From Gammaproteobacteria bacterium (GTDB lineage: Bacteria; Pseudomonadota; Gammaproteobacteria; UBA6429; Thiohalophilaceae): DNA of 63,010 nucleotides. The notes under the pieces are model-generated. The model saw only the letters and a program-made list of their open reading frames with translations, made no database searches and was not told the origin of the DNA. The stretch is taken from assembly GCA_029881995.1 (NCBI GenBank), contig JAOULO010000015.1, forward strand, positions 1 to 63,010, in the 5' to 3' direction. This document shows positions 17,450 to 28,308 of this stretch, in pieces (the first letter of the stretch is position 1; each line of letters opens with the position of its first letter). The translations under genes were made by a program, and so were the position numbers.

Positions 17450-18976
17450 TCACATAATGGTCACGTTTTCATCACGCGAGTGAAAACCCGGCACTGTATT
17501 TGATTGCCTGACAGGCAGATAAAACTGAAAAATAGTACCTCGATTTATTTCACTGGTGGCTTCAATAATACTACCGTGGAGTTCTACAATACGTTTCACA
17601 ATGGCCAGTCCAAGCCCGGCATTATCACCCTCACCCTTGCGACTTTTTTCCAGGCGATAAAATCGGTCGAAGATATGTGGTAATTCTTCAGCTGGAATAC
17701 CACAACCGGTGTCTGCTACTTTGACCTGGATCTGTTTTGAATCATTCACCAGGCTGACATTAATACAGCCACCTGCGGGCGTGTAGCGCATCGCATTTTC
17801 CAGTAAATTCTCCAGCACTCGCTGGATAAGTCCTATGTCACCATAGGCAAAGGCCAGGTTTCTTCCAAACTCGGTTTTTAATTCAATATCTTTTCCATCT
17901 GCCTGTAAGCGGAACTTCTGCACGACATCCTGTACCAGCTCAGCCAGAGAGAAAGGCTCAATATTTAACAGTGTCTCGCAGGATTCCAGCTTGGACAGTT
18001 CAAACAACTCATCGACCAGGAGATTTAAGCGCTGACTATGACTGGCTGCGATTTGTAAATAGCGTGATCGTTCCTCCGCTGATATATCTCCACCCTTTAG
18101 GATCAAAGTTTCCAGGTAGGCATGGAGTGTGGCCAGCGGTGTGCGTAGATCGTGTGACACATTGGCGATGAGTTCACGTCGCTGAGAATCATTATTTTTA
18201 AGCTCATGTAACTGGGCATCGATTCGATCAGCCATGATATTGAAGTTCTGGCCCAGTTGATCGATTTCATCGGCCTGTTGCTGTTTTACAGGATAACGTT
18301 GTCGAAGATCAGTTGCAGGCTCATCACGAGCATAGGTATTAATCGCATTGGAAAGGCGACTCAGTCGGCGTGTAAGCAGGAAGAAAATCAACCAGCCGGC
18401 CAGCAGGGCAACCGCAAGACTGGCAACCACACCACCGATAGTAAAGCGAGCAATATAACTTCCGGCCAGCATACTGCTGATACTATCGACATCTTCCCCT
18501 GCCAGGATAATATATAGATAGCATTCAAGGTCACCTTCTTTGATTAAAGAGGTGACAGAAAATATCTTGTGCTTATTCAGATCGCGAGGGTCATCACCCA
18601 TTATTGGAAAATTCTTTTTACCAGACAGGAAAGTTTGAATCGGTTTCAAATCAACTGAAGTCCGTTTGATTTTTTCCGGCGGTGCAGAGTAATCGAGGAT
18701 CTTGCCCTGTTTATCCAGTAAATAAACTTCAATACTGGGATTGACCACCATGAGCATGTGAAATACCTGCTTGAGGGCCGTTTTGTTGATCTTGCCATTA
18801 CTGAACAGCTGCTCCTGCTTGACGATATTATCAGCCAGGGTAGCATTGAGTTTCTGGTTAACTTCCTGTTGATACATCTCGGTTGAATAACGTACCAGCA
18901 GAAAAAATAACAGGCCAATCAGACAGACCAGTCCAAACAGGGCGATAGCCAGCTTACTGTATAGAGTACGAACCAT
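17450..18976 (-). CDS. Sensor histidine kinase
   Basis: The 508-residue kinase has membrane segments at about 10-28 and 178-202, enclosing a 150-residue periplasmic sensor domain (Cache/CpxA-like in size). A HAMP domain follows to about 255. The dimerisation/phosphorylation motif ANVSHDLRTPLATLHAYLE has His275. The ATPase domain carries N, G1 and G2 boxes (ENAMRYTP, DTGCGIPAE, GEGDNAGLGLAIVKRI). Its start codon overlaps the stop of the response regulator gene (TAATG), so translation is coupled. Given the neighbours, the signal is likely envelope or oxidative stress. Confidence 0.95.
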   Translation of the reverse strand: MVRTLYSKLAIALFGLVCLIGLLFFLLVRYSTEMYQQEVNQKLNATLADNIVKQEQLFSNGKINKTALKQVFHMLMVVNPSIEVYLLDKQGKILDYSAPPEKIKRTSVDLKPIQTFLSGKKNFPIMGDDPRDLNKHKIFSVTSLIKEGDLECYLYIILAGEDVDSISSMLAGSYIARFTIGGVVASLAVALLAGWLIFFLLTRRLSRLSNAINTYARDEPATDLRQRYPVKQQQADEIDQLGQNFNIMADRIDAQLHELKNNDSQRRELIANVSHDLRTPLATLHAYLETLILKGGDISAEERSRYLQIAASHSQRLNLLVDELFELSKLESCETLLNIEPFSLAELVQDVVQKFRLQADGKDIELKTEFGRNLAFAYGDIGLIQRVLENLLENAMRYTPAGGCINVSLVNDSKQIQVKVADTGCGIPAEELPHIFDRFYRLEKSRKGEGDNAGLGLAIVKRIVELHGSIIEATSEINRGTIFQFYLPVRQSNTVPGFHSRDENVTIM

Positions 18977-19701
18977 TACGCGGTGGCCCTCTGGGCCTGT
19001 GCATCGGCAAATTTGTAACCGACTCCCCAGACTGTCAGTACATATTCAGGTTGTGACGGATCTTTTTCTATCTTGGAGCGCAGGCGATTGATATGGGAGT
19101 TGACCGTATGCTCATAACCATCATGACCATAACCCCAGATGGTATCCAGTAATTGTAAACGACTGAATACCCGCCCCGGGTTTTTGGCAAAATGCCAAAG
19201 TAAATCGAACTCTTTAGCTGTCAGTACGATATCCTCACCAGCCAGGGACACCTTGCGCATATCACTGTCGATCTCCAGTTCACCAAAACTGAGTCGCTGA
19301 ATATCGGTTTGAGAACTGGCACCATTACCCGACATCGCATCCATCCGTCTTAGAATGGCCTTGACCCTGGCAATCAGTTCACGAACGCTAAAAGGCTTGG
19401 TGAGATAATCATCGGCACCAATTTCCAGCCCCAGCACCCTGTCAAGTTCGGAGGATTTGGCCGTCAGCATAAGGATAGGGGTATAGTTATTCTGTTTACG
19501 GAGTTGCTGACAAATCTCGATCCCGTCCTTACCGGGCAACATTAAATCCAGAATCAATAAATCGAACCGCTCTTTCTCGGCCAGGTTCAGGCCCTGAATA
19601 CCGTCATGGCAAACAACGGGGTCCACATCAATATCCCGCAGATGCATGGCCACCAGCTCTGCCATATCCACATTGTCTTCAATTACCAGTATTCGATACA
19701 T
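18976..19701 (-). CDS. OmpR-family response regulator
   Basis: Taken from ATG 19701 (241 residues), with AGGGG seven bases upstream; a GTG two codons earlier is the alternative. The receiver domain has the acidic pair at about 9-10 (IEDN), the phosphorylation site Asp52 (LILDLMLPGKDG) and the Lys of YLTKPFSVREL. A winged-helix DNA-binding domain follows (AKEFDLLWHFAKNPGRVFSR, then YEHTVNSHINRLRSKIE, GVGYKF). It is partnered with the kinase downstream, which it overlaps by one base. A direct repeat at 19753-19768 may be its own binding site. Confidence 0.96.
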   Translation of the reverse strand: MYRILVIEDNVDMAELVAMHLRDIDVDPVVCHDGIQGLNLAEKERFDLLILDLMLPGKDGIEICQQLRKQNNYTPILMLTAKSSELDRVLGLEIGADDYLTKPFSVRELIARVKAILRRMDAMSGNGASSQTDIQRLSFGELEIDSDMRKVSLAGEDIVLTAKEFDLLWHFAKNPGRVFSRLQLLDTIWGYGHDGYEHTVNSHINRLRSKIEKDPSQPEYVLTVWGVGYKFADAQAQRATA

Positions 19702-19752
19702 TGTCACGCCCCTGCCTACTACAGACTACTTATATACCTTAGATGTAAAAAT

Positions 19753-19845: not shown

Positions 19846-20505
19846 GTGCCAGCCATGAATAATAATACCAAGGAAAATAACGGCAGCCGGACGACCCAAC
19901 GTGCCCTGTTCCAGAAAAACCAGGCAACTGGTGAGGAACGGGTTTTTACCATTTATGATCAACGGTTTATCGAAGTTAATCGGCGCGGCATCATTGGTGA
20001 GAAAAAATACAGTCTCAACCTGAGCATTCTGGAACCCTGGCCAGTTCGACACCGCTATTTCTCCTGGCACTGGCTGATGAGTACCGTTTATTTCATGATC
20101 GCCACGGCCGCCTATGGAACCTACCTGTATTACCACCAGCATACCGAAGTCCTGAGTCGTCTCGCTCCCTTCATTCTGATCTTTATATTATTGACGCTGG
20201 GCTCACTTGTCATGTTCCTGTCCCGCTCACCCAATGTCATCGAATTCCGCAGCCGCTATTGCGGTGTACCCCTGGTCAGTCTGTTATATAACAATCCCAA
20301 TAAAGAGGATTGCAAAGTATTTGTCGAAGAAATGAAGAACCGCATCATCGCCGCCAGTCAGAGTACCCGAATAGATAAACACCAGATGCTGGTTAACGAG
20401 ATCACCCGCCTGGAAAGGCTGGTGAAAGAAAACATTCTTAATGAACACATCTATGAACAGGCCAAGGCACGTATCCCCAATATGAAATTCAACCAGAGTT
20501 ACTGA
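19846..20505 (+). CDS. Two-pass membrane protein with C-terminal helical tail, unknown
   Basis: The protein has 219 residues. A polar basic N-terminus (about 1-70) resembles a membrane-associated PH-like start. Two hydrophobic segments follow (about 72-95 and 101-123), then a soluble tail. The end (LVNEITRLERLVKENILNEHIYEQAKARI) resembles a SHOCT-like motif. The start is probably GTG at 19846, five bases after GAGGT; an ATG at 19855 is possible. No family is recognised. It is divergent from the response regulator, so it could share its promoter region. It ends one base from the convergent DUF4384 gene. Confidence 0.8.
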   Translation: MPAMNNNTKENNGSRTTQRALFQKNQATGEERVFTIYDQRFIEVNRRGIIGEKKYSLNLSILEPWPVRHRYFSWHWLMSTVYFMIATAAYGTYLYYHQHTEVLSRLAPFILIFILLTLGSLVMFLSRSPNVIEFRSRYCGVPLVSLLYNNPNKEDCKVFVEEMKNRIIAASQSTRIDKHQMLVNEITRLERLVKENILNEHIYEQAKARIPNMKFNQSY

Positions 20506-20506
20506 T

Positions 20507-21046
20507 TCAATTCCTGGGTTGGGTACGCAATATCAGACTTGTTTCTCCGTAAGCCTGTTTCGGATGAAGATGGATTTTATTCCTGAGTAATACTATCCCC
20601 TGCTTCAGCTTCCTTAGACCACTCTTCAAATTTTCTCCATCCAGCTTTGGTAGAGGCACATCTGCAGCAAATACCCATATTGTCTCCTTACCAAAAGGCG
20701 GTTCGGCTTTAAAAACAAAAGGAGCATCCGGTGCAGGCAAGGGCCTAAAACTCCCTTTTCTGAAGAAACTTGTAGAATGATTCCGGTTCGGGAGCAACTG
20801 ATAAATCTCATTCCTGGCATTCTGGTATATCACCAGGATATGGCAATCCTGGTTCAATGAAAGTAGAAAAGTAATCTCGTCACCATCCAGAAACTCGGTA
20901 CTATTTCCCATATGGGTCGTAATATCAATTTCGATTTTAGCGGGTGTGGCTAAAATCGTCTTCGAAGCACCAAGAAACAATATTAAGACAAAGAAAAAAA
21001 TGAATCTGATATAACATTTAATAGAACGATCAGTCTGGATGCACAT
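20507..21046 (-). CDS. DUF4384 domain protein, secreted
   Basis: The protein has 179 residues. A membrane/signal segment (about 12-32) precedes a DUF4384 domain. Its features are the typical FLDGDEITFLLSLNQDCHILVIYQNARNEI, QLLPNR, and a closing ETIWVFAADVP and GIVLLR segment. DUF4384 domains are found attached or next to bacterial caspase-like proteins and envelope kinases and are thought to be beta-rich interaction domains. Here it is the last gene of the caspase operon, 15 bases after the barrel gene. No strong ribosome-binding site is seen. Being linked to a caspase-like gene supports a shared role. Confidence 0.82.
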   Translation of the reverse strand: MCIQTDRSIKCYIRFIFFFVLILFLGASKTILATPAKIEIDITTHMGNSTEFLDGDEITFLLSLNQDCHILVIYQNARNEIYQLLPNRNHSTSFFRKGSFRPLPAPDAPFVFKAEPPFGKETIWVFAADVPLPKLDGENLKSGLRKLKQGIVLLRNKIHLHPKQAYGETSLILRTQPRN

Positions 21047-21060
21047 CCGTTCTTAACCAA

Positions 21061-21786
21061 TCAGTTTAAGTTAAAGGCGTAATTATACCCAACATAAACG
21101 CCCCCGATCTCATGTTTCTGGAAACCACCATTATCAAACTCATATTCATAGCTTGAACTTTTTATTCCAAACATCAATCTATGGCTGTCACTCAGTGAGT
21201 ATAACGCTCCGATATCAAGTCCAGAACTTTTACCTTTACCAATCTTTTTACCATTGGTTTTGACTTCTCCGGAAGGAATTACACCAAAAGAACCATAAAT
21301 TTTCCAGTCAGAACTGACTGGCCAGTAGCCTGCAATACCGATCCCTAGACCACCGTACTCCTGCTGGTAGTTATTACTCTGCCAGGTACTGGTTGTCCCT
21401 TTTATATCAAAAAACACGGAAATTCTCTGGGTGAGGTAATAGCCAAATACAAGATCAACTTCACTGCGATTAATAGTATCATTCGAAACCGTGTCAGTAC
21501 CTGTCTCAGTTACCTGATAAGGCCCTTCTTTTTCAAACTTATATTCGCCTCCCTGCAGATTCAGGCCGGTATAAAAATTACCTGACAGATATGCAATACT
21601 GAACCCAACCTGGCGACCCTCGTCAGACTGAAGTGTTTCGCCTTCCCTGGAGTTTTTGGCTTTCCAGCCTCCCCCCATGGCCTTCACTGAGAAGCTAAGT
21701 CCGCTACTGGTTTCTGCTCTGCTATCGACCGATAACAAAAACAAGATACAAAAAGCGGTTAAATAAAATAATTTATACATTTTCAT
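21061..21786 (-). CDS. Small outer-membrane beta-barrel protein
   Basis: Start set at 21786 (241 residues), because the signal peptide begins there (MKMYKLFYLTAFCILFLLSVDSRAE). The longer frame would run into the caspase gene. The mature part has alternating Tyr/Gly-rich strands (VGFSIAYLSGNFYTGLNLQGGEYKF, VDLVFGYYLTQRISVFFDI, GGLGIGIAGYW, DIGALYSLSDSHRLMFGIK). It ends in GVYVGYNYAFNLN, consistent with an eight- to ten-strand barrel (OmpA/OprF-sized). It follows the caspase-like gene by seven bases. Its job is unknown; it may anchor or expose a partner at the outer membrane. Confidence 0.8.
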   Translation of the reverse strand: MKMYKLFYLTAFCILFLLSVDSRAETSSGLSFSVKAMGGGWKAKNSREGETLQSDEGRQVGFSIAYLSGNFYTGLNLQGGEYKFEKEGPYQVTETGTDTVSNDTINRSEVDLVFGYYLTQRISVFFDIKGTTSTWQSNNYQQEYGGLGIGIAGYWPVSSDWKIYGSFGVIPSGEVKTNGKKIGKGKSSGLDIGALYSLSDSHRLMFGIKSSSYEYEFDNGGFQKHEIGGVYVGYNYAFNLN

Positions 21787-21793
21787 GAATACT

Positions 21794-22816
21794 TCATAGT
21801 GTTGGTATGGGTAGAATATCTGTTTTGAAGTTTGAATCACCTTTCTCATCTTCAACAATAACCTTTCTACTACTTTCCATATCCGATTCGACAATAACCT
21901 TAACTCTATCTTTGGGTATACCTTTTACCTTTACTTTGATAAAAACAAATTCGCCCAGTTCATCTCCTGCTCCATGCAGCACACCACTTTCTGGCACCTG
22001 GTCAACATTATTAGCTACTGCCTTTTCAACATTTGTTGATAGTTCACTCAGACTGAGCATAGTACGATCATTACTTTTTAATTCATTGAGCAGAAAATAG
22101 CTGAAAGGAGAATGACCGGATGATTTATAATCATCATCGACATACTCAACCCCTCCTGCGGCCATGATTTGTACGCTCTTCTTCATGGCGACTTTTTTAT
22201 AATACTGATCTGTTCCAATATTTGAATGTATTCCTCTAACCCCACTCCTAAGTAAACTGCCACTAAAACATGAATCAGATATAAGCAAGGTATGTCTTAC
22301 TCTGGATGAAATCAACATAAGTTCATCGCGAATAGTCGAGTTCCTTAGATAGCTTGTATGGTCATGACCTTTTGCATCCGTTGGTACCCAGTAGCCGGTA
22401 TTGGTATTTTCATCCAGATAACCGTGTCCGGCATAATAAACCAGCACACTATCATTCGTAAGAACCCGTCGTGAAAGTGACTGTAATGCCAGCAACACAT
22501 CCTTTCTGCTTGCATTTTCCATTAATTTTACATCGGTGAAATGGTATTGCTCCTTCAGGACCTGTTTCAGAGCCCTGGCATCTGAAACAGCTGTCTTCAG
22601 ACTTGGCCATGTCCCTCCTGCATCACTGTAATCATTGTTACCAATGATCAAGGCCCGATACGTCCCGGTATCGATAGGCAATACAGGTTTACTGTTAATC
22701 GACTTCATTCCGATACCGCGAGATTCTGCATAGCTAATTTTAAAATCCAGGCAGAATACGACCAGTACCGTTAAAAACAGTATCTTATGGAGTTTAGTTT
22801 GTTCTTTGAACTTCAT
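21794..22816 (-). CDS. Secreted caspase-like peptidase (C14 family)
   Basis: The 340-residue protein has a signal peptide (to about residue 30), so the protease acts outside the cytoplasm. The caspase/metacaspase p20 domain spans about 52-270. It starts YRALIIGNNDYSDAGG and carries the catalytic His131 (VYYAGHGYLD) and Cys183 (LISDSCFSGSLLR). The Asp182 preceding the Cys suits a metacaspase-like basic specificity rather than aspartate specificity, but that is inference. A C-terminal beta-type segment (about 270-340) has no catalytic features. It lies nine bases after the anti-sigma gene and seven before the barrel gene, clearly one transcript. Confidence 0.93.
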   Translation of the reverse strand: MKFKEQTKLHKILFLTVLVVFCLDFKISYAESRGIGMKSINSKPVLPIDTGTYRALIIGNNDYSDAGGTWPSLKTAVSDARALKQVLKEQYHFTDVKLMENASRKDVLLALQSLSRRVLTNDSVLVYYAGHGYLDENTNTGYWVPTDAKGHDHTSYLRNSTIRDELMLISSRVRHTLLISDSCFSGSLLRSGVRGIHSNIGTDQYYKKVAMKKSVQIMAAGGVEYVDDDYKSSGHSPFSYFLLNELKSNDRTMLSLSELSTNVEKAVANNVDQVPESGVLHGAGDELGEFVFIKVKVKGIPKDRVKVIVESDMESSRKVIVEDEKGDSNFKTDILPIPTL

Positions 22817-22824
22817 ATTTGCAC

Positions 22825-23727
22825 TCAGTTATTGCGTTTATCGATAATAAATCCACCCTTTGCTGAGAACAACTGTCCATTGCTTGTCTTACCGCTCAAA
22901 TTCCATACATACCGATGGCCTGTATCGCCTGGAACCCTGGTGAATTTTGCCTGTGGTTTTGAGGTAGTATGTTTACCTGCTGATATCTGACGCCCCTGCT
23001 TATATATCTTGAGGTGCATGGTATAGCTTTCTGCATTTTCCACTTCCGGCCAGTGTAATAACGCTGTGTTTTCTCCCTGCAAAGTCACTTTCAATTTTCC
23101 GTAGGGTTGTGCTGTTTTATTTGCACCGGAAAAAAAACCAATACCTGGTAGTGTCTGTTCTTTCTTGAATTGTATGACCGGATTGTCCTGGTAAGCGATA
23201 ACAGCAGGTGAGCCGGTCATATTAACAGGCAGAGGAACCAGCATAATAGTAAAAACACTCGCTGCAATTGCCGTTATCGGGACACTCATCCATACAGGCC
23301 ATTTTACGGAAAACCAGCTTTTAAAAAGATCAGAGAATCTACTTCCTGAGTGTTGCGGTTGAGTCCAATTGGTATCAACAGTACCTTTATCCATACTGAC
23401 ACGGTGACTGACATAATGCAGTGCTGATTTCATCGCCTGAGGCTCTTTTTTGATTATGTCTTCCAGCTGCTGCTGCTCAGTAGCATTCAATTCACTATTA
23501 AGATGCCTGTCAAGCATATCTAGATCCAGGGCCTGCTTATTACCTGCATCGATAGATGGGATGTTTATACTACCTAGATTTGACTTCAGATTCATGAGCA
23601 TGTCGACTTCCGCCCTGCAGTCTATACATTCCATCAAGTGCAATCGTACCTGCCTGAATTCATTAGAGCCAGGATCACAGATGTAATTATTTAACTGATC
23701 TGCATCCGGATGATGTGTCGTGTTCAT
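22825..23727 (-). CDS. Zinc-finger anti-sigma factor with periplasmic domain
   Basis: Start set at 23727 (300 residues), with AGGG seven bases upstream; a longer frame would overlap the sigma gene. The N-terminal zinc-anti-sigma motif is H-x3-C-x2-C (His30, Cys34, Cys37). A single membrane segment spans about 144-166, and the periplasmic part from 167 ends in a beta-sandwich. That sandwich has fibronectin-III-like features: GENTALLHWPEVENAESYTMHL and HRYVWNLSGKTSNGQ. This is the normal layout of a membrane anti-sigma factor that senses an envelope signal. It directly follows the sigma-like gene (stop 23790), supporting a cognate pair. Confidence 0.85.
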   Translation of the reverse strand: MNTTHHPDADQLNNYICDPGSNEFRQVRLHLMECIDCRAEVDMLMNLKSNLGSINIPSIDAGNKQALDLDMLDRHLNSELNATEQQQLEDIIKKEPQAMKSALHYVSHRVSMDKGTVDTNWTQPQHSGSRFSDLFKSWFSVKWPVWMSVPITAIAASVFTIMLVPLPVNMTGSPAVIAYQDNPVIQFKKEQTLPGIGFFSGANKTAQPYGKLKVTLQGENTALLHWPEVENAESYTMHLKIYKQGRQISAGKHTTSKPQAKFTRVPGDTGHRYVWNLSGKTSNGQLFSAKGGFIIDKRNN

Positions 23728-23789
23728 ATGTTTACCCTGCATTTCTGGTTTATATAATACATGACAATAAATTTTCCGATATTTAAAAA

Positions 23790-24728
23790 CTATTTCATCA
23801 AACCAGCCAGTCTGGCCAGTGTTTTCCGACAAAAATAATAAAGTTGCTGGCGATTTACCTTATTAGGTTCAATACCAGACTTGATAGAAATATTAAGTCT
23901 TTCTAATGCACCAAGCACATCTGACGCATCCAGATTATCAAGTACCATCGCTTCAACGACATATTGCTCAACAGGGCTTAACTGCTGCCATGCAGCCGCC
24001 AGTTTTTCCCGACTCTCCATTTTTTCTGGTAGCTCATCAAAATATGGAATATCAAGTTCAACCGCAGGGCTGTCTCCCTGTTCATGCTCATTGTCCAGAG
24101 TGCTGGACAAAGACACGGTATTAGGTGGATCGAGTAGGTACAGCCGCTTTCTCTGTGTCAGGGTGATAATGATCTGGTGACACATCATTTCTGTATCTTT
24201 CTCACTTCGGCAAAGTTTTTGTGCTATCGCCGCAATATTGTCTCCGGCCCGCAAACCATAGAAGACCTTCGCTGCCTCAGGGAACAATGCTCTTATATAT
24301 GTGGGCACATGTACTTTTCGACCAAAACGCCAGTCTTTCCAGCGTTCATAAAAAGGCAGTGAATTGGCAATAAAATAAAAATAGTCATACAGGCGGGCAC
24401 CATTCTTTCCTGAGTACTGTCTCAGACGTCCAGCGTTTGTCAGGTCGTCCAGCATCCAGGCATAACTGGCATTTCCCCATTCACAAAGGACTTCATCATG
24501 TACAGGCCTTTTAACAGTATTCGTCAGGGTACAAACATAACGATATCGATTATCATTACAAAAACGTTTACAAAACCGACCTGTCTGGTAACTGATAACA
24601 GGATGAGCCAGTGAATTAACTTTTTCACGAGCCCCTTTATCACCAGTTGCAGCCAACTCAGCCAATTTGAACTGTTCTGATTCAGCAGATAATCCATCTA
24701 CCTGTAATTTGTTCTTACCAGATGTCAT
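23790..24728 (-). CDS. Atypical sigma-70 family (ECF-like) factor
   Basis: The protein has 312 residues, longer than usual ECF factors (about 190). A region-2-like part (about 20-150) has DEVLCEWGNASYAWMLDDLT and RLRQYSGKNGARLYDYFYFIANSL, corresponding to the sigma-2 core and the 'run-through' segment. The C-terminal part (about 240-312) resembles sigma-4: AAWQQLSPVEQYVVEAMVLDNLDASDVL, ending in RQQLYYFCRKTLARLAGL. A central insert of about 60 residues is acidic. The neighbour is a zinc-finger anti-sigma factor. Overall identity to known ECF groups is low by eye, so sigma activity is a strong inference, not shown. Confidence 0.72.
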   Translation of the reverse strand: MTSGKNKLQVDGLSAESEQFKLAELAATGDKGAREKVNSLAHPVISYQTGRFCKRFCNDNRYRYVCTLTNTVKRPVHDEVLCEWGNASYAWMLDDLTNAGRLRQYSGKNGARLYDYFYFIANSLPFYERWKDWRFGRKVHVPTYIRALFPEAAKVFYGLRAGDNIAAIAQKLCRSEKDTEMMCHQIIITLTQRKRLYLLDPPNTVSLSSTLDNEHEQGDSPAVELDIPYFDELPEKMESREKLAAAWQQLSPVEQYVVEAMVLDNLDASDVLGALERLNISIKSGIEPNKVNRQQLYYFCRKTLARLAGLMK

Positions 24729-24745
24729 AAACTATTCCAGTCATC

Positions 24746-26668
24746 CTATTCAGGTTGATAGAGAAACCAGCCCGATATACGGTCTTGAAGTATATGAATT
24801 GCGATTCCGTAAGTATCATACGCAAGATATTCACCAGACATTAAGTGAATCTGCCGGTTGGGGGTTCCTAATGTTTTTATTGCACGCTCTGACTTGTCAC
24901 CTATTACAATCCCCTGGTTCATTTTGGCTATGCCTGCATACTGCCAGGCATTGATGACGCGATTATTCATATCCAGTATAAAGTGACCGCCGTTGGCTGT
25001 TCGATAAATCTGGTACTTATCCCCCTCTATCCATAAGTTATCATTTTGTTCAGTTTTTCTATTAAGACTTCTTAAGCCTTTATCACCAAGCCGTACACCA
25101 TGAATAGTCGGGGCCTGGCCTGCCAGTTTTTTAGACAGCGTCTGTTTATTAATATGACTTACAGCAAGTTGGAACAGCACCGGTTTCCCATTGTCACGCG
25201 CATACATAGCCAGCTTTTGCCACAACTCTTTTGCCTTTTCTGACTTACCAAGGTATCTCGCATAGGCCGCGCTATTGTGATAGACACTGTATAGCAGGAT
25301 ATCATCAGGTATACTTTTTACCTCATGCAGAGTACTTGTTCGGACAAGCAAAGCCTCAAAGGCCTTTTCAGTAGCATCAATATTTCCTTCTAAACCGCTG
25401 GTCATTGCCAGAATCATATCGGAGGCTGCATCCCGGCCAAACAGGGAAAGATATTTACCCTGAATAATGCCCCTTACCATGTAGGAATTCTGATCCAGCA
25501 AATAACTGAAGGCGAGAAGCAAATAGGTTTTTGGGTTATTCGGTTCCAGCTTGATTGCCTTTTCAAAATATTCAATGCTCTGCTGAATATTTTGCTGCAT
25601 TTTTTTCTTGATCTTTCTTGCAGCTGAACTTAAGTCAGTACGCTTCGAAGAAACAGCGTGAGTGCTATCATTACCTGACATGGATGCACTGGCATCAATC
25701 AGGATTGGATAGTAATAAACTGGTTTTGCCCAACCGAATTCCTCAACCAGTTGACGATAATTGTTCAAGGCTTGTGTAAAATATGTCTGACCAATCGCCG
25801 TAAGTACTGCCCGATTGGTAAAATCACGCCCATAAACGGTAAAATATCGTCTCGCCAACTCATATCGACCAGCGATAAAAGCCTGAAGTCCCATTTGATA
25901 CAATGTCGATTGTGTAGCAACCCCTTTCAGTTGTACATGCGCCCGCAAAGCACGATGTCTTGCCTGCTGACAGGCATTATTTTTCTCTTTTTTTGATTTA
26001 CTCTTACTACAGGATGTCTGCCAGATATTTTCTACCCAGGCAGTAAAGAAATCTTTTTTATCCAGGACTTGATAAGGATCATATCCCACACTGGCCATTA
26101 AAATCAGACCGTCGTGATCGGCCTGGTTTTCTTTCTGGCTAATGTCCTGCCATAGCTTATTATCATTTTTTATATTGCCCAGCATGAAACTTTTAACTTC
26201 CTGTCCCTGCTCACCAATCAGCCTGAAAAATCGTTGGTGCCATAGATCATCTGAACGTTGATGTGCCAGCTCGTGTGCCAGAACAAAGGCCAGCAGATGT
26301 TCTGCTCGATGCTTTCCATATTTTAAACAAGTTTCAATGGCTGCCCGACTTAGAAGAATATTGCCATCAGCCAGTGAGGCTGCCCACGGGCCCGAGGATG
26401 ATTTCACCACATGTAATCCCGGTTCCAGCCGAGTATTATCCCATGCCCTCAATAACACCTGAAAGACTCCCTGAGCCATAGCGGTAAGTGAATCTTCCTC
26501 AGCCGAGAGTGTATGTTGTCGCCAGTAGGTGATCGACTGCCTGGGGTCCTCAGGTGGTGCTAGTGAGTCAGACCAGGCATAAGCAGGAATCAAAAACATA
26601 GAAAGCAGGCCCAAGCCGAAGCAAACGACTCTTATGCTCTTCTTTCTATATTGCTCGTTACCAGGCAT
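24746..26668 (-). CDS. M48-type metallopeptidase with TPR-like repeats, secreted
   Basis: The 640-residue protein has a signal peptide (to about 33). The zinc-peptidase motif HELAH (132-136) sits in LAFVLAHELAHQRSDD, with a downstream glutamate in KENQADHDGLILMASVGYDPY, the third M48 ligand. Helical TPR-like repeats follow (about 240-480), including SIEYFEKAIKLEPNNPKTYLLLAFSYL. The C-terminus (about 520-640) is beta-rich, with SmpA/OmlA-like features (IVIGDKSERAIKTLGTPNRQIHLMSGEYLAYD). It resembles BepA-like periplasmic chaperone-proteases. GGAG precedes the start. It is the first gene of the sigma/caspase operon, 17 bases before the sigma gene. Confidence 0.88.
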   Translation of the reverse strand: MPGNEQYRKKSIRVVCFGLGLLSMFLIPAYAWSDSLAPPEDPRQSITYWRQHTLSAEEDSLTAMAQGVFQVLLRAWDNTRLEPGLHVVKSSSGPWAASLADGNILLSRAAIETCLKYGKHRAEHLLAFVLAHELAHQRSDDLWHQRFFRLIGEQGQEVKSFMLGNIKNDNKLWQDISQKENQADHDGLILMASVGYDPYQVLDKKDFFTAWVENIWQTSCSKSKSKKEKNNACQQARHRALRAHVQLKGVATQSTLYQMGLQAFIAGRYELARRYFTVYGRDFTNRAVLTAIGQTYFTQALNNYRQLVEEFGWAKPVYYYPILIDASASMSGNDSTHAVSSKRTDLSSAARKIKKKMQQNIQQSIEYFEKAIKLEPNNPKTYLLLAFSYLLDQNSYMVRGIIQGKYLSLFGRDAASDMILAMTSGLEGNIDATEKAFEALLVRTSTLHEVKSIPDDILLYSVYHNSAAYARYLGKSEKAKELWQKLAMYARDNGKPVLFQLAVSHINKQTLSKKLAGQAPTIHGVRLGDKGLRSLNRKTEQNDNLWIEGDKYQIYRTANGGHFILDMNNRVINAWQYAGIAKMNQGIVIGDKSERAIKTLGTPNRQIHLMSGEYLAYDTYGIAIHILQDRISGWFLYQPE

Positions 26669-26910
26669 GGACTAACTCCACTTTTTCATGTCATCACAAT
26701 AACTAGACCACAAAATGCATTAGATTTGAAAAATAATTTATATTTTCAATATATTTATAACTTATTGCTAAGTATAGAAAGAGTAATCTGGATTATCAGA
26801 ACTTTCTTTCAAATTCCGAGTAATACCCGGTCTTCTATTTAACGAGATGCAGTCATGGATATCCCAACAGTGACTGCAAACAGTTATGCAATTAGATAGG
26901 AGATAATATC

Positions 26911-28308
26911 ATGTGGCGTAATTCGAAACCTGTACAACTCACTGGACGAATATCGGTGGGTCTCTTCACAATAATCCTGGTTCTAAGTGGCTGTGGATCC
27001 GGTGAAAATATCAACAAGTCCGCAAGGACCGATAACACCCCCAATATCGCTATGGACGTACCCCCTAGTCTGACGGGTTCACAACAGAACTTTGTTGGTC
27101 AATCTGGTGTTAATGCTCTGGCCTATTCATCAGCGGCCAATGCGGTTGGTCAACCCTGTGCCTATCTGGTGGATGATAAGGAAGATCATTTTCGTAATGG
27201 CTATCAGATGACAAAATTGCTGGTCTCAGCCATTGCAACCTGGAGCTGTATTGGAGACCTGCTAATCGATGTTTCCAATTTTGTCGACCACGATGGTGCT
27301 ATTCATGAGACAGACAATAACAGGGACTCGGAATTCTATAAACCGGAAGATCCAACCCATTACAGCGTGACGGACGATTCTGACAGTCAAACTACCGTTA
27401 AGATGTATTATGGCTATTATCGTGATACCCCACCCATTCCTGAAGATGAGCCCCAGTTCTATATTTCATGGAATGAATCGGGTGATGATACTCTACAAGG
27501 TCGTATCATTGTTGATGCGCGGACTATTAATCCTGGCAATCGTAAACTGGAAGATCCGATCATGTTACGAATGGATTTTAATTACACCAGCGATGAAAAA
27601 GCGGTAGATATGTTTCTGCGCTTTGATGGAGGGAACAAATGGGCAGAAGGTTTCCGTATTCACCTGGTCAAGGACATGAACGCCAACCCTCTGGAAAGCG
27701 TATATCTCGCTCGTGGCCTAATTGAAATGAAAGCACAATTTCTGCCTGTGGCATCCATAAAAGAGATCCCGGTTGTTCAGCTCTATACTGTATCCAACCG
27801 ATCTGGCGATGGTGCAGCCATTGCTAAATTTCTGGATGTCTCTCTACCTTTGAAACTAAGTGGAGGTATTATTGATAACCATTTAGGTAATTATCTGTTC
27901 TCACGCGATGATAAGTACTACTTCGATAAACAGGGTCAATCAGACTGGATATATAAGCTGGTCACTGATTCTGAATATCGTGGTGGACGTACCACGCCAG
28001 AAATTGATGGTAGCTGGATCCCCTTTAACCCATCACTGGACTTGATTGCCGGTGAGTCAGGGCTGAATCTGGGTAGTGATTATTTTACTGACTCAAAATG
28101 TGCCAAGATCAATGATAAGTGTAACCCGTTACTGAATGCCATCTTCGATCAACATAAATACTTTGATGAGTTGGAGCATAACCTGGGTACAGAACCCCAG
28201 GACTGGCGCAGCAAAGCAATCTCAAACCCAATCAACCTGGAAAGTGTTTATCCAAATGGACATGACTGGACTGACGCCTTTGAGTTTAGCTTTACTCCAT
28301 CAATATAA
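26911..28308 (+). CDS. Large lipoprotein of unknown function
   Basis: The protein has 465 residues. It has a lipoprotein signal with lipobox VLSGC, followed by a low-complexity linker. The mature part is acidic, rich in aromatic residues and predicted mostly beta (YHSVTDDSD, KMYYGYYRD, FRIHLVKDM). No catalytic motif or family is recognised. Two cysteines near 390-400 (SKCAKINDKCNP) may form a disulfide. AGGAG is well placed before the ATG. It is divergent from the M48/sigma/caspase operon with 242 bases between, so it may share the promoter region and be part of the same regulon (inference). A strong terminator follows. Confidence 0.82.
   Translation: MWRNSKPVQLTGRISVGLFTIILVLSGCGSGENINKSARTDNTPNIAMDVPPSLTGSQQNFVGQSGVNALAYSSAANAVGQPCAYLVDDKEDHFRNGYQMTKLLVSAIATWSCIGDLLIDVSNFVDHDGAIHETDNNRDSEFYKPEDPTHYSVTDDSDSQTTVKMYYGYYRDTPPIPEDEPQFYISWNESGDDTLQGRIIVDARTINPGNRKLEDPIMLRMDFNYTSDEKAVDMFLRFDGGNKWAEGFRIHLVKDMNANPLESVYLARGLIEMKAQFLPVASIKEIPVVQLYTVSNRSGDGAAIAKFLDVSLPLKLSGGIIDNHLGNYLFSRDDKYYFDKQGQSDWIYKLVTDSEYRGGRTTPEIDGSWIPFNPSLDLIAGESGLNLGSDYFTDSKCAKINDKCNPLLNAIFDQHKYFDELEHNLGTEPQDWRSKAISNPINLESVYPNGHDWTDAFEFSFTPSI

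Follow-up and report, generated by a model that had tools for sequence, protein, structure and literature searches.

A probable divergent sigma-70-family factor encoded with a membrane anti-sigma factor, a caspase-like protease and envelope proteins at a locus carrying a recurrent promoter-like motif

We found a conserved set of genes for probable envelope proteins, encoded together with a sigma/anti-sigma pair, in a 63,010-nt contig (JAOULO010000015.1, assembly GCA_029881995.1) of a Gammaproteobacteria bacterium (UBA6429; Thiohalophilaceae). This whole stretch is hereafter called the window. Our preferred reading, to which we assign a probability of about 0.77, is that a sigma/anti-sigma circuit at this locus regulates itself and an envelope gene set of its own. 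Its sigma-like protein, named SIG here, escapes sequence profiles and has sigma-type domains in a predicted structure, and a bipartite motif with a fixed spacer recurs before three units of the locus. A first-pass annotation made from the sequence alone had listed six co-directional, tightly spaced minus-strand genes, and all six open reading frames (ORFs) are present at positions 20507-26668. They encode, in the direction of transcription, an M48-like metalloprotease with TPR repeats (24746-26668, 640 aa), SIG (23790-24728, 312 aa), a membrane anti-sigma factor (22825-23727, 300 aa), a caspase-like protease (21794-22816, 340 aa), a probable outer-membrane beta-barrel protein (21061-21786 with an ATG start, 241 aa) and a DUF4384 protein (20507-21046, 179 aa), with intergenic gaps of 17, 62, 8, 7 and 14 nt. 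The anti-sigma coordinates also use an ATG start; the longest ORF begins at TTG 23832. We add a seventh member, a divergent lipoprotein gene on the plus strand (26911-28308, 465 aa), and three promoter-like sites, none of which the first-pass annotation had reported.

The six genes are conserved together in other genomes. Within the order, 4 of 40 genomes carry a SIG homologue, and a sample of 369 genomes from the class contained 11 carriers (the window's genome is counted in both). Homologues also occur on 31 contigs of a named genome collection, including three Nitrospirota bins and one Desulfosarcinaceae bin; the carriers are mostly uncultured bacteria. The only one of these 31 contigs whose title refers to a free-living strain is from Reinekea forsetii G2M07 (L035), in which the complete six-gene set and the three promoter-like sites are present. 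After removal of duplicates of the same contigs, 41 SIG loci remained for the locus survey. The order M48-SIG-anti-sigma-caspase-barrel-DUF4384 is found on one strand in 23 of these, a collinear part of it in 13 and another arrangement in 5. Where the contig is long enough on the expected side, the M48 gene is present in 32/34 loci, the anti-sigma gene in 32/34, the caspase gene in 29/31, the barrel gene in 24/30, the DUF4384 gene in 24/26 and the lipoprotein gene in 19/24. With six divergent loci set aside, the gene families have correlated pairwise distances (r 0.67-0.84). Joint inheritance would produce this, and so would a shared species history. In the SIG tree (39 of 41 rows aligned; L038 and L058 were omitted as odd long ORFs, and L032 was trimmed), two Nitrospirota rows and the Desulfosarcinaceae row group together (84/81) within a weakly supported set that contains gammaproteobacterial rows. 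This placement suggests transfer, while bin contamination is a possible explanation, above all for short contigs.

Several variants of the gene set were seen. A Troglogloeales bin (L036) has the order M48-caspase-SIG-anti-sigma plus a large DUF4384 protein; in L034, DUF4384 precedes a different-looking caspase and the M48 gene is inverted; and a tandem pair of barrel paralogues lies within one operon at L008:10943-12551. In the window, the operon is flanked by genes for a sensor kinase (17450-18976) and a response regulator (18976-19707), and by a convergent plus-strand gene for a 219-aa protein (19846-20505). By eye, the same three genes follow DUF4384 in another genome (G025, locus L213), and the flank thus looks syntenic.

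We then investigated the regions upstream of these genes. The pattern TTCAAA-N(14-20)-GTCT occurs upstream of the M48 gene in 22 of 33 loci, always with a spacer of 16. The divergent strand carries it in 18 of the 33, with a spacer of 17 in one case (L031). The other 5 of the 38 M48 loci are cut at the start and have no upstream region. First-order Markov resamples, which are not exact dinucleotide shuffles, gave means of 0.14 (maximum 2) and 0.18 (maximum 3) for the two strands, respectively. A position weight matrix (PWM) was built from 44 of the M48-upstream and divergent sites and was then independent of the SIG/anti-sigma junctions, whose sites were not used. At these junctions, a score of at least 15 is reached in 31 of 36 homologous cases, compared with 0.02 expected from resamples of the same first-order kind. 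Across 32 M48 and 36 anti-sigma regions, a spacer of 16 accounts for 61 region-strand matches, and all 13 other lengths tested together for 2. In the window, the TTCAAA-N16-GTCT sites of the M48-SIG unit (26705-26730, minus strand) and of the divergent lipoprotein (26808-26833, plus strand) are accompanied by a degenerate site of the anti-sigma unit, TTTAAA-N16-GTCA (23762-23787, minus strand), with a PWM score of 19.9 that none of 200 resamples reached. One genome (G235) offers a natural test. There, M48-SIG is followed by what read as glycyl-tRNA synthetase genes. The distal half is on a separate contig and comprises the anti-sigma gene, an ORF of 160 aa and the caspase, barrel and DUF4384 genes; the motif (PWM 24.7) stands at the head of this half, 67 nt upstream of the anti-sigma ORF. 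Since the split half is still led by the motif, the genes from anti-sigma to DUF4384 appear to form their own transcription unit. That the operon, the lipoprotein gene and the anti-sigma gene are each preceded by a bipartite motif of fixed spacing supports the sigma-type control that had been proposed.

SIG itself is invisible to sequence searches. The window protein has no Pfam match up to E 1, nothing usable in NCBIfam (SigI at 0.048) and no match among PDB sequences up to E 10. The structure prediction is more informative. Searching Foldseek with an AlphaFold model (pLDDT 84.8, pTM 0.47) gave 245 rows at E <= 10, of which the best 50 are all sigma or RNA-polymerase entries, with a best E of 3.3e-4. 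We take the RNA-polymerase chains among them to be sigma subunits, and the rows RPSB and RPSD to be Bacillus sigma factors. In structural superposition with VIA, residues 234-312 lie on sigma4 domains at 1.5-1.8 A over 61-65 aa, best on SigL (3hug_K; 1.5 A, 65 aa, Z 9.3), and residues 15-138 lie on region 2 of RpoS (5h6x) at 3.4 A over 92 aa (Z 8.4). Thus, sigma2- and sigma4-like folds occur in one chain in the correct order, as in sigma-70-family proteins, with middling Z values. Helices within residues 143-199 are confidently predicted between the two parts, at the position of sigma3, and a collinear hhalign alignment (probability 33%) runs through this region. ECF (group 4) sigma factors have two domains in about 200 aa, without an ordered domain between them. 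With 312 aa and a predicted ordered helical region between its domains, SIG falls outside the ECF definition, although ECF chains are nonetheless among its structural matches. An N-terminal hydrophobic stretch is found in only 1 of 40 SIG proteins with complete starts. The model therefore supports, at the level of domains, the sigma-type fold that had been proposed for the 23790-24728 product, and we regard SIG as a divergent sigma-70-family factor.

The adjacent gene encodes the likely partner. In the anti-sigma family, the zinc ligands of the ZAS motif H-x3-C-x2-C are conserved in 34/36 (H), 33/36 (C) and 33/36 (C) members. Pfam zf-HC2 matches 18 of the 33 aligned members (three of the 36 are cut by contig ends), with a best E of 4.6e-11; the window protein itself has no zf-HC2 match at E 1. 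Among PDB sequences, the best matches of the family profile are ChrR (5.2e-4) and 3hug_B (6.5e-3), which is RslA by its title. Simple hydropathy shows an internal hydrophobic helix in 35 of 36 homologues, consistent with a single transmembrane helix, and the part predicted to be periplasmic is weakly fn3-like (fn3_2 at 0.0018, below the cut-off), in agreement with an fn3/Ig-like domain. The zinc-finger anti-sigma factor with a membrane segment read from the sequence alone is thereby borne out. This protein is likely a ZAS-type membrane brake on SIG, as its neighbouring gene and shared promoter type suggest. Three homologues (L028, L051 and L052) have lost zinc-ligand residues and kept the rest of the protein.

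The remaining products are likely exported. Among homologues with complete starts, an N-terminal hydrophobic stretch is found in 29/33 M48 proteins, 27/32 caspases, 23/26 barrels and 25/28 DUF4384 proteins, as judged by simple hydropathy and not by a signal-peptide predictor. This agrees with the secretion that the first-pass annotation had assigned to the caspase and the M48 protease. The caspase matches Pfam Peptidase_C14 (4.8e-24), and its proposed catalytic dyad, His131/Cys183, is invariant in 33 of 33 homologues, as in Peptidase C14 members. The DUF4384 protein matches its family at 2.3e-17. In the M48-like protein, Pfam finds TPR_2 (2.2e-7), while Peptidase_M48 stays short of its cut-off (17.2 against 20.3 bits). 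Of 38 homologues, 34 have both HExxH and the Glu presumed to be the third ligand, and the other 4 have gaps there; when 10 homologues were scanned with Peptidase_M48 at E 0.001, one was listed, with a score above the cut-off. Its PDB sequence matches (16 at E 0.01) cover the TPR part only, and BepA is not among them. Of the Pfam families that the first-pass annotation had suggested for searching, Peptidase_C14 and DUF4384 matched in the window proteins, where Peptidase_M48 stayed below its cut-off; zf-HC2 was found only in relatives, as were marginal sigma70_r2 matches.

The barrel protein of the window has no Pfam match itself. Because OMP_b-brl is found in 15 of 26 homologues (best 7.2e-11; the window protein is not among these), it is probably an outer-membrane protein. 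The divergent lipoprotein has homologues in 26 of 41 loci. The alignment covers 18 of the 22 adjacent lipoproteins; the 17 relatives share 41-54% identity with the window protein, a lipobox is present and Cys28 is invariant. The window lipoprotein has no Pfam match up to 0.1. With its AlphaFold model (pLDDT 78.8), Foldseek gave nothing at E 0.001 or better, and VIA gave outer-membrane barrels and a few others, with Z 9.3 at best and 5-6 A root-mean-square deviation, suggesting a barrel-like fold without a clear relative. The 'periplasmic protease set' of the first-pass annotation is therefore too narrow as a description, since the set also includes an outer-membrane barrel and a lipoprotein.

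We also looked for the motif outside the locus. It was found 21 times, versus 8 for the reversed control, in 14 SIG-bearing genomes, and 32 versus 51 times in 36 SIG-less genomes of the order (Fisher p 0.002 for SIG-bearing versus SIG-less). Within the same order, the SIG-bearing genomes have 9 versus 3 (p 0.027). With the tighter pattern, the 14 SIG-bearing genomes contain 35 matches in all, of which 14 are at the locus. One genome (G338) has 7 matches versus 0 for the control, 2 at the locus and 5 elsewhere. Three of these 5 are before or at the starts of ORFs, for a galactose-oxidase-like exported protein, a lipoprotein like family P0007 and a protein reading like a small barrel; the other two have no such ORF. 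P0007 lipoproteins have motif sites in two genomes of different families (L096 / G000:C54:8040-8065 and L153 / G338:C10:57302-57331; G000 is the window's genome), and in 14 SIG-less genomes searched, none of 7 holders has the motif upstream. An intergenic match of the window's genome (L092 / G000:C104:49856-49881) is near ORFs that read as an ECF-like sigma/anti-sigma pair. No ORF of at least 80 aa is directly downstream on its strand, where a small RNA or a small gene is possible. We do not claim a defined wider SIG regulon.

Taken as a circuit, these features would work as follows. SIG most likely reads TTCAAA-N16-GTCT promoters. The motif copy before M48-SIG would give positive feedback, a second copy would drive the divergent lipoprotein, and the third would drive anti-sigma-caspase-barrel-DUF4384, combining negative feedback with effectors. 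At rest, SIG would be held by the membrane anti-sigma factor. A periplasmic or outer-membrane cue, sensed through the fn3/Ig-like domain, would release it. The M48-TPR protease, the caspase, the barrel, the DUF4384 protein and the lipoprotein would then work at the envelope, where their task would probably be outer-membrane protein quality control or remodelling.

A number of observations count against this circuit. On the side of SIG, Pfam sigma70_r2 appears in only 2 of 39 family members (best 0.033), and a family profile searched against PDB sequences finds DesR first (0.036), followed by two sigma entries (0.27 and 0.47), none of them significant. The collinear hhalign alignment with RpoS/FliA-type sigmas has a pairwise E of 4.5e-4 at a probability of only 33%. 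Only 2 Foldseek rows are at E 0.001 or better, the whole-chain TM is about 0.2 and the model pTM is 0.47, and the VIA Z values of 8-9.5 are within the range that its note calls a possibly common arrangement for helical models. With such middling values, the fold evidence stays at the domain level, resting on the consistency of the rows and the right order of the two domains. As to the motif, the enrichment was tested across genomes from different families and depends in part on G338, without which p is 0.02. In the window's genome, a loose pattern (spacers 13-19) has 46 matches versus 77 reversed, showing no excess; 12 of the 46 have a spacer of 16, and 10 of these are outside the window, mostly inside or partly inside ORFs. 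The strongest candidate for wider regulon membership is the P0007 lipoprotein; of the 14 SIG-bearing genomes searched, 6 hold it, and the motif precedes it in only 2 of them. Finally, an RseA-type anti-sigma is present in 14 of 14 SIG-bearing genomes, indicating that the SIG module would run beside, and not in place of, the classical sigma-E system.

The presence of RseA in every SIG-bearing genome, together with the weak profile similarity of SIG to sigma factors, leaves room for the idea that the motif is read by another sigma factor (for example, RpoE) or a regulator, and that SIG is a degenerate sigma relative acting otherwise. The GTCT element of the motif presumably resembles the -10 elements of sigma-E-type factors, but its -35 element, TTCAAA, differs from what we take to be the sigma-E -35, GAACTT. 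Moreover, the excess over the reversed control is found only in SIG-bearing genomes, and the sites lie next to the very genes that encode the sigma and anti-sigma factors; we thus consider this idea improbable. We give a similarly low probability to a conflict module for cell death or anti-phage defence, with the caspase either killing the cell or cleaving the proteins of an invader. Caspase-ECF-sigma neighbourhoods have been proposed as conflict systems in other bacteria (PMC8195603). The generic caspase model of PADLOC matches our caspase (2.8e-12), as does NCBIfam caspase_w_EACC1 (NF047832; E 1.2e-22), although at 80.4 bits the latter does not reach its cut-off of 140. However, the caspase partners are envelope proteins, the hydrophobic N-terminus of most caspase homologues points to export, and the only other PADLOC result for the six proteins is a weak cyclase match (0.015), again on the caspase.

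A third alternative concerns how SIG is released. The periplasmic caspase might cut the anti-sigma factor, in a site-1 cleavage as by DegS on RseA, and thereby free SIG. The caspase gene directly follows the anti-sigma gene in 28 of 41 loci, and both products probably reach the periplasm. There is also a precedent, since the CHAT protease Csx29 cleaves Csx30, the inhibitor of CASP-sigma (PMC10028731). The Asp at C-2 of the caspase is invariant in 33 of 33 homologues. By analogy with metacaspase structures, we assume that this residue indicates cleavage after Arg or Lys. However, the periplasmic part of the anti-sigma factor has no strongly conserved basic site: one column is K/R in at least half of the members (0.75), and it is in the C-terminal domain. 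Because a conserved juxtamembrane basic site is missing, we consider this cleavage unlikely. The caspase gene is also within the unit driven by the anti-sigma promoter, as expected of an effector. A shade less likely still is the complete version, a caspase-gated envelope response in which the cut sets free a sigma family that had gone unrecognised and that has TTCAAA-N16-GTCT promoters of its own. If true, a caspase would control transcription across the inner membrane, without CRISPR. The self-regulated circuit with the caspase as an effector remains our preferred reading.

Associations of caspases with sigma factors are known in general. A 2012 survey noted that in Myxococcus and others, metacaspase genes share operons with sigma-70 factors (PMC3501461). 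As in our set, a caspase-like gene is in a predicted operon with a sigma factor and is conserved between genomes. Unlike SIG, which is invisible to Pfam, the sigma factors there were found by Pfam, and the accessible parts of that survey mention no promoter and no M48, lipoprotein or DUF4384 set. Neighbourhoods that combine EACC2-caspases with ECF sigma factors have been described (PMC8195603), and ECF54 is associated with CHAT proteins (PMC8999054). In the accessible parts of a survey of metacaspases from an aquatic ecosystem, the term sigma factor does not occur (PMC4933709). A link between a caspase-like protease and a sigma inhibitor is known from type III-E CRISPR. This Csx29-Csx30-CASP-sigma system likewise has a caspase-fold protease, a sigma factor, an inhibitor and three sigma motifs in one locus, but CASP-sigma is ECF-like and the protease is RNA-guided (PMC10028731). 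By comparison, the SIG locus has conserved envelope neighbours and a caspase with an N-terminal export-like stretch. The M48 protein resembles E. coli BepA in having an exported M48 catalytic motif followed by TPR repeats (PMC7950410, PMC8423444), and differs from it in its length of 640 aa, its extra C-terminal part and its Peptidase_M48 score below the cut-off.

In the open-licence PMC literature, we found no description of this gene set, sigma family or promoter, nor of a caspase, DUF4384 and a sigma factor together; DUF4384 itself is rarely mentioned there. Relative to that literature, the gene set, the SIG family and the probable TTCAAA-N16-GTCT promoter appear to be new. The role of secreted bacterial caspases is poorly understood, and here one sits in a defined and conserved regulatory circuit whose other members include an outer-membrane barrel, an M48 protease and a lipoprotein. 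Its probable promoter makes the regulon and the inducing condition directly testable. SIG represents a sigma family missed by profile libraries and accessible by way of structure and promoter footprinting. A further parallel is the RpoE-RseA-DegS envelope stress response, with its membrane anti-sigma factor, envelope genes and sigma-type promoters at its own locus. The SIG locus has all three features, but with a different sigma family, a ZAS-type anti-sigma factor and a secreted caspase.

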